From Chloroflexi bacterium HGW-Chloroflexi-2 (GTDB lineage Bacteria > Chloroflexota > Anaerolineae > Anaerolineales > Anaerolineaceae), in contig PHBY01000011.1 in NCBI GenBank assembly GCA_002840735.1, positions 1-64,000 on the forward strand: a DNA stretch of 64,000 nucleotides, given 5' to 3'. This document shows positions 16,702-38,323 of this stretch, piece after piece. The translations under genes were made by a program, and so were the position numbers. Below the pieces are notes generated by a model. It did no database searches and was not told the origin of the DNA. It worked only from the letters and a program-made list of their open reading frames with translations. Within the stretch, counting starts at the first letter, position 1; each line of letters starts with the position of its first letter.

Positions 16702-19281
16702 TTACAGGAACTGGTTTAGGGGCACATTGTCTTTGATGTACTCCGGGATCAATGTGCGCAGATCGGGGCTGATCTTGCGGAAGGCGTCACCGTGTGGGTT
16801 AAGATTGAGCCGCGCGAATTGTTTACTGTTAACAATATCACGGAAATCCGTATCCAGGATGTAGGCTTTGAACACCCGCCGGGCATCCTGCCACACGGAT
16901 TCCTCCGGCAGATAGCGACTATCGAACTTGTCGAATTCCTCGTCCAGCAGCTCTTCTTTGGTCTTGATATATGGGATCAACCCGAACAGGTACTCCAACA
17001 ATTCTTTCAAGGGCACACGCCGGTCGGTGTTGACCGATTTTCTTAATTTCTCCAGGCTGTAAAATTCTTTGGGCTGGTTCAAATGGTGCTTTTCGACGTA
17101 ATCGGCGGCGGCTTCGAAAGCCCCAGCATTCATTTTTTCCAGCACAGCAGGGTCCTGCGTGACCTGATCCGCAAATTTTTGAAAATACATGCGGTCAATC
17201 TTCATGCCATTTGGGCCAATTTCTTCGATTACAAATTTGCTCAATCGATCCACCCGGGTGCTGTCATAATCCGTATACACGTGACCGCCATCGGGGGTCG
17301 CATCGATTACTGGCAAGGATGGCTCTGGTGGCAGTTTTAAAACCTGATCATAATTGTATTTTTCTTCGAAGTACTCGCAATTGGCGAAAAAATCGAACAG
17401 TTTGAAGTGCTGTTTGGGGATTTTGCCCAATTCGGCTTTCCATGCCGGGTTGCTGATTTCTTTGACAAAGTCATAGGTGCGCGTACCGCGCCCTTTGATC
17501 TGAATAAAATCGGTCGGGGAGAAGATCGGGCGCATCAGGCACAGATTCAGAATGTCTTGGCAATCATAGCCGGTGGTCATCATACCTACTGTCACCGCCA
17601 CGCGGGTTTTGCCGGTGCGGTATTCCGGGTGAAAGTTGCCATAGCCGTTTAACTTATTGCTGGCAAAGTTGAGTGTCATCTGCTGGGCACCAGGGATCAG
17701 TGAGGTCACCTGAACAGCAAAGTCGGAGTTATATTTCCCCGGGAAAAGTTGATGCGCCATCTCGTTCAGAATCTGCGCGATTTTGGCGGCATGGTTCTGG
17801 CTGACACAGAAGACGATGCTCTTGCCAATTTCACCGCTGATCGGGTCGGGAAGGGCATGTTCCAGGAAAGTCTTGCAGAACACCGCGTTGGTATGGTCGG
17901 AAAAGAAGCGTTTCTCGAAGTCGCGCTGCACAAAAATCTCGGTCTGTTCTTCGCCTTCCTCGGTCTCCACCACCACCGAATAGCCTTCATCCGAGAGCAG
18001 TTGGGTGGTGATCTCGGTGCGTGCATCCACCACCAGCGGGTTGATCAGATAGCCATCCTTGACCCCATCAATCAACGAATAACGAAAGGTCGGGATGCCA
18101 TTCTCACAGCCGAAGGTCAGGTAGGTATCCAGCAGAGCGCGGCGTTCGAATTCACGCACATCCATGTTGGGGTGGGTTCCGTACGGGCGGGTTCCGAACC
18201 CGCCCGTACCTGATTCATCCATTCCGAATCCGCCTATCCCATCCACATTCTTCAGATAATCCTTCGGGGTGGCGGTCAGTCCCAATTTATACCCAATAAA
18301 ATACTCAAATACAGCCCGTGCATTTCCGCCAATGCTGCGGTGGGCTTCATCGGAGATCACCAGGTCAAAGTCACTCGGGCTGAACTCGCGTTTGTAGCGA
18401 TTGTTGGAGAGAAAAGTCTGCACCGTCGAAATAACAATTTCAGCTTTGCGCCAATCATCCCGCGATTGTTTGAAAATTACGGTATGATAGTCCGGTTTGA
18501 GATATTGTTTGAAAGCCTTCTCTGCCTGATCTTCCAGCTCCAATCGATCCACCAGAAACAGCACTCGTCGGGCATTGCCTGTGCGCAGAAAGAGCTTGAT
18601 GATCGCTGCCGAGACCAGTGTTTTGCCGGTGCCGGTTGCCATCTCAAACAGAAATCGGTCTTTGCCGTCCTGCACGACTTCCTGTACCGCCTGGATGGCT
18701 TTCAACTGGTAGGGGCGCAAAAAGCGCAGGTTGTTGTTTTGCAGGAAAACTGCACGTGTTTTTTCATCCTGCCAGGCAGGGTCGCGCTCATAATCCGGTC
18801 GGCTGGTCAGGACGATATAATCCTCCCGCACCAGTTCATGGACCAGGGCATTCGGGTTGGGCTGGAACACCTGAAAACCCTGCAGTTCCTCCTGCCGCGG
18901 GAAAACCGTTATGCGTTTGGGGTTGCCGTATCGGATATCCCACAGGTAATGGGTGTTGCCATTCGAAAGGATAACAAAGCGGCAATTCTGCGCACGCGCA
19001 TAGGTACGCGCCTGCTCCTTGCCGATCAACGGATTCTTGTCCTCAGCTTTGGCTTCCAGCACCACAAAAGGGAAGCCATTGGTATCCAGCAGCAGGAAAT
19101 CAATATAACCGTCAGCGGTTTTCTCAAAATCCTCCCCCAGATCATCCAGAGCCCTGGTCGAGATTTTGACATGATTCTCCAGCAGCACATTGGCCTTGCC
19201 GAGTTCATTATCCAACAAACGCCAGCCGGCTTCTTCCAATAATTTATTGATCTTAATGCGTGCTTTGGCTTCTTTGTCCAT
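16702..19281 (-). CDS. hsdR: Type I restriction endonuclease subunit HsdR, with an in-frame repeat insertion
   Basis: The 859-aa product from ATG 19281 begins MDKEAKARIK; an in-frame start at 19383 would add an unlikely leader. The nuclease domain has VVLEAKAED (Glu-x-Lys, about residue 77). The translocase has MATGTGKT (about 214), SDEAHRS (about 309), LTATPK and the helicase C lobe with QIKGRGTRT. The EcoEI-type C-terminal domain follows. Between LTATPKDYLKN and EFERRALLDTY there are roughly 25 extra Gly-rich residues, encoded by a palindromic repeat at 18181-18209 and its flanks. The insertion keeps the frame, so the protein may remain functional. Partner of the fused HsdMS. Confidence 0.9.
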   Translation of the reverse strand: MDKEAKARIKINKLLEEAGWRLLDNELGKANVLLENHVKISTRALDDLGEDFEKTADGYIDFLLLDTNGFPFVVLEAKAEDKNPLIGKEQARTYARAQNCRFVILSNGNTHYLWDIRYGNPKRITVFPRQEELQGFQVFQPNPNALVHELVREDYIVLTSRPDYERDPAWQDEKTRAVFLQNNNLRFLRPYQLKAIQAVQEVVQDGKDRFLFEMATGTGKTLVSAAIIKLFLRTGNARRVLFLVDRLELEDQAEKAFKQYLKPDYHTVIFKQSRDDWRKAEIVISTVQTFLSNNRYKREFSPSDFDLVISDEAHRSIGGNARAVFEYFIGYKLGLTATPKDYLKNVDGIGGFGMDESGTGGFGTRPYGTHPNMDVREFERRALLDTYLTFGCENGIPTFRYSLIDGVKDGYLINPLVVDARTEITTQLLSDEGYSVVVETEEGEEQTEIFVQRDFEKRFFSDHTNAVFCKTFLEHALPDPISGEIGKSIVFCVSQNHAAKIAQILNEMAHQLFPGKYNSDFAVQVTSLIPGAQQMTLNFASNKLNGYGNFHPEYRTGKTRVAVTVGMMTTGYDCQDILNLCLMRPIFSPTDFIQIKGRGTRTYDFVKEISNPAWKAELGKIPKQHFKLFDFFANCEYFEEKYNYDQVLKLPPEPSLPVIDATPDGGHVYTDYDSTRVDRLSKFVIEEIGPNGMKIDRMYFQKFADQVTQDPAVLEKMNAGAFEAAADYVEKHHLNQPKEFYSLEKLRKSVNTDRRVPLKELLEYLFGLIPYIKTKEELLDEEFDKFDSRYLPEESVWQDARRVFKAYILDTDFRDIVNSKQFARLNLNPHGDAFRKISPDLRTLIPEYIKDNVPLNQFL
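18181..18209. repeat. Palindromic repeat inserted inside hsdR
   Basis: Arms GTACGGGCGGGTT and AACCCGCCCGTAC form a perfect 13-bp stem with loop CCG. A partial copy of the core (GGCGGATTCGGA on the coding strand) lies about 35 bp away. It is translated as part of a Gly-rich insert (TGGFGTRPYG) and is related in design to the pair at 5747-5815. Confidence 0.85.
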
Positions 19282-37025: not shown

Positions 37026-37120
37026 AGGAGAAAATTGAGAATTGAGTTTTGAGAATTGAGAATTGAGTATTGAGAATTGAGAATTGAGTTTGAGTGACTC
37101 AATTCTCAATTCTCAATACT
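37026..37120. repeat. GAGAATTGA-rich repeat forming a perfect 24-bp hairpin
   Basis: Bases 37026-37089 contain about six GAGAATTGAG/TGAGTTTT units. The last 24 bases (37066-37089) are exactly complementary to 37097-37120 around a 7-nt loop. It lies just downstream of the rhodanese stop at 37130 and could serve as its terminator, though the T-tract is poor. Confidence 0.8.
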
Positions 37121-37129
37121 AATAGCTAA

Positions 37130-37606
37130 TCACTCCATTGGATAACCGCTCTGTTGCCAGAGTTGTAAGCCACCTTGAAGCGCGCTGACGTTGTTAAATC
37201 CTCTTGCTAATAATAAGGTCGCCGCACGGGCGCTGGATTCTTCAGCCGGTCAGGTACAGTAGGTGATGATCCGGGCGTTTGGATCGAGGTTGGTAATGCG
37301 CGATTCCAGGTCGCTTTCTGGGATTGAAAGTGCTCCGGGAATATGCCCGACATTATACAAATCATCGCCACGCACATCCACAAAAATGGCTGTACCGGCA
37401 TCATAAGCTGCTTTGGCATCCTGAAGTGAGACACGTTCCACTTCAGGATATGGAATGTTTAAATTCTGGTTTGTCACAGCCGATTGTGCCGGTTGTTGCG
37501 CCTGGATGATCAACACGATCACAGCCACCACCAGCATTAACCCACCAATCAGAATCACCCAGATGGAAGGATCTATTTTTTGTTTGTTCTTCTTCTGCCT
37601 TGCCAA
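37130..37606 (-). CDS. Membrane-anchored rhodanese-like protein with in-frame TGA
   Basis: From ATG 37606 the product has a basic start, one membrane helix (about residues 15-35) and a rhodanese domain with VDVRGDDLYNVGHIPGALSIP. The frame meets TGA at 37250-37252 right after IITYCT. It then continues in the same frame as PAEESSARAATLLL, a perfect rhodanese C-terminus (FNNVSALQGGLQLW) ending with TGA at 37130. The TGA stands where YCxCP-type rhodaneses have their second Cys, so it may encode selenocysteine, or be a nonsense mutation or sequencing error. I cannot see a convincing SECIS hairpin downstream by eye. If TGA stops translation, the 118-aa product would lack the second half of the active-site loop. 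Confidence 0.75.
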
Positions 37607-37729
37607 TGTTCGCTCCTTGACATCCTTATTATTTTAGAAGGATGAATAATCGATTGTTTGAAAGTATATCGCAATTTACGACAAATTCAATCCGATTAAG
37701 AGGCTTCTTAAAAAATTCTTAATTAAGAT

Positions 37730-38323
37730 TTATGTTTTAATAATATTGGTCTTTACCCCGACCCAAAGCACAACACCAAATACCAGGATCAGAAAACTAC
37801 CGCCCACGAATACCCATTTTAAGGATGTGAAGATACCCGCCAGGCTGGCAATTATATCGGTTCGCAATGGGTAACGAAACATCACCACCATGTTGGAGAT
37901 ATTTTCCAAAAAATCCAGCAGGATGCCTGCCATAGGTGCCAGATTGAGCAGGCGCAGTTTTGACTCTTCCAAAATCGTCTTGTTTAATATCCAGCTGATC
38001 GAATTAATCAAAAAGAAGGTATACACCAGCGGCCAGACGATATCGAACGAGATGCGAGAATCCAGATAATATAGTCTGCCTTCCTGCCCATATGCTTCCG
38101 CCATCTGATACAGTTCGGTTTTGGTATAATAGAAAGAAGTATCCGGAGATTTGACCGACCCGGTGACTTGCGCAGATCGATCCGATTCGGCGGGCAATAC
38201 CACAAGCATGAACATAACAAACAAAGCCAGTGTAATGAGAAACACCCAAAATGATGATTTACTGTAAAAATATTGGGAAATTCGCTGCATAAGGGTTCCA
38301 TCCAGGTTAAAAATTCTACTCAT
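37730..38323 (-). CDS. Four-TM membrane protein (197 aa), function unknown
   Basis: AGGAGA upstream of the ATG supports the start. Predicted membrane segments lie at about residues 24-44, 95-115, 128-148 and 165-190. The loop between the first two is about 50 residues and probably extracytoplasmic (SDRSAQVTGSVKSPDTSF). The pattern SFDIVWPLVYTFFLINSISW followed by LDFLENISNMVVMFRYP recurs in uncharacterised membrane proteins; no function is known to me. Repeat copy B lies about 30 bp before its start. Confidence 0.7.
   Translation of the reverse strand: MSRIFNLDGTLMQRISQYFYSKSSFWVFLITLALFVMFMLVVLPAESDRSAQVTGSVKSPDTSFYYTKTELYQMAEAYGQEGRLYYLDSRISFDIVWPLVYTFFLINSISWILNKTILEESKLRLLNLAPMAGILLDFLENISNMVVMFRYPLRTDIIASLAGIFTSLKWVFVGGSFLILVFGVVLWVGVKTNIIKT

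Follow-up and report, generated by a model that had tools for sequence, protein, structure and literature searches.

The locus carries a gene for a protein with a single rhodanese domain, encoded on the minus strand of the window, the whole 64-kb stretch of DNA that was analyzed, and interrupted by an in-frame TGA (Table 1). Translation of the minus strand from 37606 to 37130 gives LARQKKNK...ARIITYCT-TGA-PAEESSARAATLLLARGFNNVSALQGGLQLWQQSGYPME-TGA, and the TGA at codon 119 is the single interruption in this frame of 158 codons. The plus-strand frame at the same positions has many stops. An earlier note on this DNA had given these coordinates and the frame IITYCT-TGA-PAEESSARAA, running on to a second stop, but not the strand; the read-through translation confirms both coordinates and frame on the minus strand. 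If the TGA is read as a stop (table 11), the product has 118 amino acids and is truncated within the rhodanese domain. Rhodanese homology persists in the frame after the TGA until the next stop, and the nearest homologues align with the read-through protein over residues 1-159 or 1-162. The read-through protein matches Pfam Rhodanese (PF00581) with 65.3 bits at model positions 2-101 of 102, above the gathering score of 22.2, in agreement with the rhodanese identity that the note had assigned.

Table 1. Features of the predicted selenoprotein rhodanese gene, in window coordinates.
Feature	Position	Strand	Details
Selenoprotein rhodanese gene	37130..37606	minus	TTG start at 37606; 158 residues; terminator TGA at 37132-37130
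In-frame TGA, the putative Sec codon, residue 119 (YCT-U-P)	37250..37252	minus	TGA at the same codon in 70/71 TGA-bearing family matches; Cys in L033
Cys117 codon, rhodanese catalytic-Cys position	37256..37258	minus	Alignment A2; TGA in at least 8 relatives (UxU loci)
Rhodanese domain (residues 61-152), interrupted by the TGA	37151..37426	minus	PF00581, predicted structure, PDB fold search
N-terminal hydrophobic helix, residues 13-36	37499..37570	minus	After a Lys/Arg-rich start; predicted membrane anchor
Shine-Dalgarno-like AAGGAG	37613..37618	minus	6 nt before the TTG
SECIS hairpin	37219..37233	minus	Columns 20-24 paired with 30-34, numbering from the first base of the TGA; loop CGUGC at 37228-37224

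Two other stretches of the window, 18211-19242 on the plus strand and 1832-2011 on the minus strand, were considered as read-through genes and rejected, since the pieces tested have no Pfam match. The plus-strand frame at 17749-19242 consists of 154 codons, a TGA, and 342 open codons. It has coding-like codon use, with no Pfam match on either piece, and probably represents neighboring genes in one frame.

Conservation of the TGA and the downstream hairpin

A family search of 147 genomes (E <= 1e-12) gave 103 matches in 76 genomes, and every one of the 71 TGA-bearing matches was fetched. The TGA is located two codons after the catalytic-Cys position in 70 of these 71 matches, which come from 61 genomes, the source genome included. 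The motif is YCTUP in 66 of the 70, and YCTUL, YCTUG, YCTUA, and IUTUP are found once each. The 71st match (L115) was rejected as the same protein, being a canonical CRSGNRS rhodanese with its TGA about 40 codons further on. All 20 of the weaker family matches fetched, among them L115 and the C35 copy of the source genome (L121), have a CR[S/T]GxRS loop, and none is a Cys version of the window protein; 13 further weak, TGA-free matches of the 103 were left out of the comparison. The sole Cys homologue found (L033) belongs to an Acidobacteria MAG, reads YCTCPAEESS at the site, and is 43% identical over the domain. The earlier note had stated that this position is normally Cys, and the single Cys example agrees with this.

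Some copies from different genomes are identical over stretches of 96 nt (L053, L054, and L073; L060 and L061), and L079 and L080 have a single mismatch in 54 nt. Such identical or near-identical copies may be shared contigs. In a phylum profile search of 400 genomes, 30 loci and 40 further stretches were taken from among the matches listed, and they revealed the TGA also in further Chloroflexota families, so that all counts beyond the family are minimum values. The TGA is therefore not confined to one assembly; such a confinement is what the note had named as evidence against selenocysteine.

When 66 distinct sequences beginning at the TGA were given to RNAalifold with no structure supplied, one hairpin was predicted, in which columns 20-24 pair with columns 30-34 across a loop of 5. 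The stem has 5 bp in most relatives and 4 bp in the window gene, where the outermost pair is G.A. Among 110 distinct sequences, 98.7% of the cells are paired, and changes on both sides are seen at all five pairs, in 24 cells; named copies, repeat fetches of one place, and identical stretches were removed before these counts, and also before the tree described below. None of 500 shuffles, which ignore kinship, was as good, and slid controls, in which kinship is kept, gave no more than 2 pairs and 9 cells. Pair 24-30 is CG in 98 and UA in 11 of the 110 sequences, and pair 21-33 is CG in 95, UA in 7, and AU in 1. Since both of these pairs join third codon positions, protein coding does not account for them. 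Nonsynonymous compensation is also observed, from CG to UA at pair 23-31 in L166 and from GC to AU at pair 22-32 in L190. At pair 23-31, the Cys homologue L033 has G-G. The commonest loops are CGUGC (78/110) and GGUGC (13/110).

Folded alone, the window sequence gives no signal (z = -0.29, with 77 of 200 shuffles equal or better). The hairpin lies within its minimum-energy fold over 50 nt, at -10.7 kcal/mol, and three of the hairpin pairs are retained in the 42-nt fold (-8.3). The bSECIS limits published in PMC13188914 include an MFE below -7.5 over 50 nt, and the energy of the window sequence lies within this limit. Its 5-nt loop with G second and then U, the 21 nt from the UGA to the loop, and the 4-bp stem are likewise inside the bSECIS limits. 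The earlier note had seen no convincing SECIS hairpin, which holds for the fold of the lone sequence, but the comparison of relatives reveals a clear short hairpin.

In an Rfam scan, the 801 bases that surround the gene gave no match to a SECIS family at E values up to 10, and no family passed its gathering score. The highest-ranking matches were to microRNA models and fell on a repeat of 7 bp, AATTGAG; they were rejected as spurious. This repeat forms a tandem array just downstream of the gene, at 37033-37117, and is followed there by the inverse, CTCAATT; the array is possibly terminator-like or a mobile repeat.

Selenocysteine machinery and the decoding of UGA

The source assembly (4,106,884 bases in 40 contigs, 99.87% complete) contains selA, selB, selC, and selD, so the absence of selB or selC, which would have spoken against the note's suggestion, is not found. 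The profile search gave selB with 349.7 bits, above the cut-off; selA matched with 546.4 bits and selD with 346.7 bits. The tRNA-Sec is a 93-nt match of 69.9 bits, and ARAGORN reports a tRNA-SeC with the anticodon tca (UCA). The selD gene (L026, C7:53947-54882) has one in-frame TGA itself, in the N-terminal part, where NCAGUASKL corresponds to a Sec-containing SelD.

Among the family genomes, selB is above the cut-off in 54 of the 61 that bear the TGA versus 55 of the 86 others (Fisher p = 0.001, uncorrected for kinship or completeness). Of the seven TGA-bearing genomes with no selB above the cut-off (G009, G011, G054, G072, G100, G126, and G139), five are 77-85% complete, G011 (92%) has a 227-bit fragment, and G139 is 98% complete. 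The rhodanese loci of G139 (L060) and G126 (L061; the genome is 85% complete) have an extra in-frame TAG, and there is no selB match in either genome. The extra TAG may fit decay after the loss of selB, or it may belong to a contaminating contig.

With TIGR01591 at E <= 1e-60, formate dehydrogenase was sought in a selection of 37 genomes that carry a TGA rhodanese. The source genome has two matches, with a TGA in neither, and every match in the 7 further genomes from its genus is TGA-free. Among 26 family genomes, a TGA-bearing match occurs only in G068 and G069, while 17 have TGA-free matches only and 7 have no match. In the neighboring family f2, five of six genomes have a TGA-bearing formate dehydrogenase match, and one has no match. 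A formate dehydrogenase of the TIGR01591 family probably does not maintain the Sec machinery in the source genome. Since 24 of the 26 family genomes show no TGA-bearing formate dehydrogenase, the rhodanese is, besides SelD, a candidate reason for the upkeep of the machinery. PMC4959059 describes a Sec elongation factor in Anaerolinea thermophila, with no dehydrogenase annotated with Sec, and a TGA rhodanese could explain this puzzle.

The conserved TGA, the covarying hairpin, and the Sec machinery strongly support what the earlier note had raised as a possibility, a selenoprotein with a CxU motif. We consider it very probable that the window gene is a genuine selenoprotein gene, which is the best explanation of the data, and, judged from sequence, Sec as such is almost certainly the residue at UGA 119. 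As expected from established knowledge, SelB with Sec-tRNA would bind the hairpin and insert Sec at this codon. The explanation that the note had set against this, a nonsense mutation of TGT or TGC to TGA or a sequencing error in this assembly, would make the gene a pseudogene or an artefact. The TGA is one base from a Cys codon, and the hairpin of the window sequence is not significant by itself, but the same TGA codon is present in 70 places in 61 genomes, the downstream frame is intact, and the RNA stem is compensated. The shared TGA refutes this explanation, for which we see a negligible chance. A reassignment of UGA throughout the genome, or its decoding by a near-cognate tRNA and not as Sec, would also fit a frame that is open with the TGA as any residue. 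This is very improbable, since TGA still terminates 5 of the 36 mechanical ORFs of >=250 aa in the window, as well as the rhodanese gene's own frame, the genome has a dedicated tRNA-Sec and SelB, and the equivalent residue in L033 is Cys. The selenoprotein reading adds to Chloroflexota a widespread, RNA-supported lineage in which the ordinary gene call ends at residue 118.

Relatives with a predicted U-x-U loop

At least eight loci, read from the assemblies alone, have a TGA at the catalytic Cys too, giving U-x-U: L155 (G274), L159 (G411), L164 (G298), L166 (G235), L168 (G351), L170 (G250), L212 (G382), and L104 (G021). The motif is YUTUP in six of these, YUAUP in L170, and IUTUP in L104, which is a weaker UxU case in that the Tyr is lost as well. 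An order search of 13 genomes found UxU in all four genomes of family f50. In six of the seven UxU genomes tested (G382 was left out), selB is above the cut-off; the seventh, G274, is 82% complete and has none.

A tree was made from 111 rows (102 CxU, 8 UxU, and 1 CxC), with both sites masked and other row types dropped. UxU needs four changes on this tree, of which the starred (well-supported) branches force three, and the tree is limited by few columns, an unsettled bootstrap, and the long branches of L159 and L155. UxU has probably been gained more than once, although three changes could equal one gain and two losses. We regard as likely a stepwise take-over of the rhodanese active site by Sec, from C-x-C (Acidobacteria) to C-x-U (in the window gene and most of its relatives) and then to U-x-U. 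In the UxU genes, both UGAs, the second of which is two codons upstream, would depend on a single hairpin, at distances of 21 and 27 nt. If this is true, such a rhodanese carries two selenols in its active loop, and the UxU relatives are a natural example of two nearby UGA codons sharing one hairpin. Furthermore, C-x-C, C-x-U, and U-x-U in one fold would provide a natural series for measuring the value of one or two selenols.

The UxU derivative is the new part of the finding. Table 1 of PMC13188914, a selenoprotein review from 2026, gives the rhodanese motifs UxxS, UxxG, CxU, and UxxxxU, and UxU is absent from it. No paper on a UxU rhodanese, a Chloroflexota selenocysteine rhodanese, or a two-selenocysteine rhodanese was found in the full-text literature, outside which most subscription journals lie.

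A second rhodanese paralogue, YU-NMQH, with a TGA at the catalytic position, occurs in G351 (L216) and G382 (L218). The paralogue in G298 (L217) has Cys at that position (YCMMRH), and these could be another Sec/Cys pair.

Predicted protein and possible function

From the N-terminus, the protein consists of a basic segment, a hydrophobic stretch, a linker, and the TGA-interrupted rhodanese domain. The predicted structure has a mean pLDDT of 83.3, with blocks of 89-97 over residues 51-160, and in a PDB fold search with this structure the best matches are rhodanese domains. The predicted helix H13-36 has pLDDT blocks of 61-81. The positive-inside rule was used to orient this N-terminal helix. Because the basic N-terminus precedes it, the rhodanese domain is predicted to face outward, with helix 13-36 probably serving as a membrane anchor. 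Of the 113 TGA homologues measured, a set that includes duplicates but not two broken copies, 96 have a hydrophobic segment, defined as 19 aa with a mean KD of at least 1.6; seven of the eight UxU forms listed lack it. Cys117 lies in the invariant catalytic-Cys column of alignment A2, in which the TGA of L104 is counted as Cys.

Rhodanese selenoproteins with a CxU motif are known under the name 'Rhodanese-like domain-containing protein form 3' (PMC13188914, Table 1; PMC9312934), and form 3 is credited in PMC13188914 to Zhang and Gladyshev 2005. Among the NCBIfam models, NF041203 rhodanese_LYCAU, which represents these CxU proteins, matches the window protein best, at model positions 17-124 of 126. 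Membership in this equivalog was rejected, since the score of 71.8 bits (65.6 in the genome search) is below the cut-off of 115 bits. Ten other relatives, taken as pieces of 108-114 aa, are all below the cut-off as well, the best being L163 with 109.5, and all 66 members of alignment A2 match the model at E <= 0.001. The window protein shares with NF041203 and form 3 the single rhodanese domain and the Cys-x-Sec loop, with YCTU at residues 116-119, but has about 50 residues and the predicted membrane anchor before the domain; the model name has LYCAU where the window loop is YCTUP. Because of the score below the cut-off and the anchor, we describe it as a variant of form 3. In our reading it works like a form-3 CxU rhodanese selenoprotein and represents a separate anchored lineage outside the equivalog.

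Rhodanese selenoprotein forms 1, 2, and 4, as tabulated in PMC13188914, share the Sec in the rhodanese domain, but their motifs are UxxS and UxxG and not CxU. TsoB (UxxxxU) is given in the same source as a fusion of rhodanese and DsbD in which the two Sec are five residues apart, unlike the CxU of the window protein, which scores 28.1 bits versus 805 with the TsoB model. The canonical single-domain rhodaneses GlpE, PspE, Alr3790, and YgaP have the same fold and catalytic Cys position as the window protein, but no Sec.

Compared with the CR[S/T]GxRSA loop of the paralogues, YCTUPAEESSA is longer, contains Glu-Glu, and is without their Arg. A longer loop with no Arg would disfavor anion-type sulfur donors. 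We propose that an N-terminal membrane anchor holds the single rhodanese domain of the product, with the active loop YCTUPAEESS probably facing outside. Cys117 would accept sulfane sulfur or a mixed disulfide, Sec119 would resolve the Cys117 adduct via a selenenylsulfide, and an external thiol donor would reduce the Cys117-Sec119 pair. The role would then be that of a disulfide/persulfide reductase guarding cell-surface thiols, and not that of a thiosulfate sulfurtransferase. That Cys117 and Sec119 operate as a redox pair is a tentative reading of the sequences, plausible but a little short of probable. The place of Cys117 in the invariant catalytic-Cys column and the heavy-metal P-type ATPase next to the gene in genus g5 speak for it.

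The gene contexts are clade-specific, and no universal operon partner was found among the clustered loci. In genus g5, 13 of 14 loci have a heavy-metal P-type ATPase directly upstream of the rhodanese gene, and 12 have a CsoR-type repressor gene further upstream (both from BLAST clusters, with Pfam in L092 only). The same ATPase cluster is directly upstream in L142, and in L043 and L144 it is on the downstream side. FtsH-like and UspA-like genes flank the UxU gene in L204, L206, and L207 of family f50, and other contexts include glycine-cleavage, glycolate/lactate-oxidase-like, and FtsH/UspA-like genes (all named by eye). The P-type ATPase/CsoR and FtsH/UspA contexts fit a function in stress or in thiol and metal handling.

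Two other functions would leave Sec119 in place. The protein could be a sulfur- or selenium-transferase, with a persulfide or perselenide on Cys117 and with Sec119 boosting the transfer to an acceptor, as the rhodanese fold and the conserved catalytic Cys would allow. We think this unlikely, though worth keeping in mind, because the loop is without the CR[S/T]GxR pattern of all 20 paralogues fetched, and the persulfide Cys itself is replaced in the UxU forms. Alternatively, the CxU pair could be a metal site, in a surface chaperone or sensor for copper or another soft metal. The P-type ATPase neighbors in g5, L142, L043, and L144 and the CsoR-type cluster in g5 argue for this, but there are no such neighbors in the window or in the other 98 of the 115 clustered loci, many of which have short flanks, and the glycine-cleavage, glycolate/lactate-oxidase-like, and FtsH/UspA-like contexts elsewhere also argue against it. 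A metal site thus seems improbable, and we retain the Cys117-Sec119 redox pair as our working proposal.

The neighbors in the window, an MFS transporter, a Pfam-less protein, and SOR_SNZ and SNO (pdxS/pdxT-type) genes, give no functional clue. The protein encoded upstream on the minus strand at 37730-38323 has 197 aa and no Pfam match, and it is likewise found upstream in L035, L036, L037, and L040, from the same genus.
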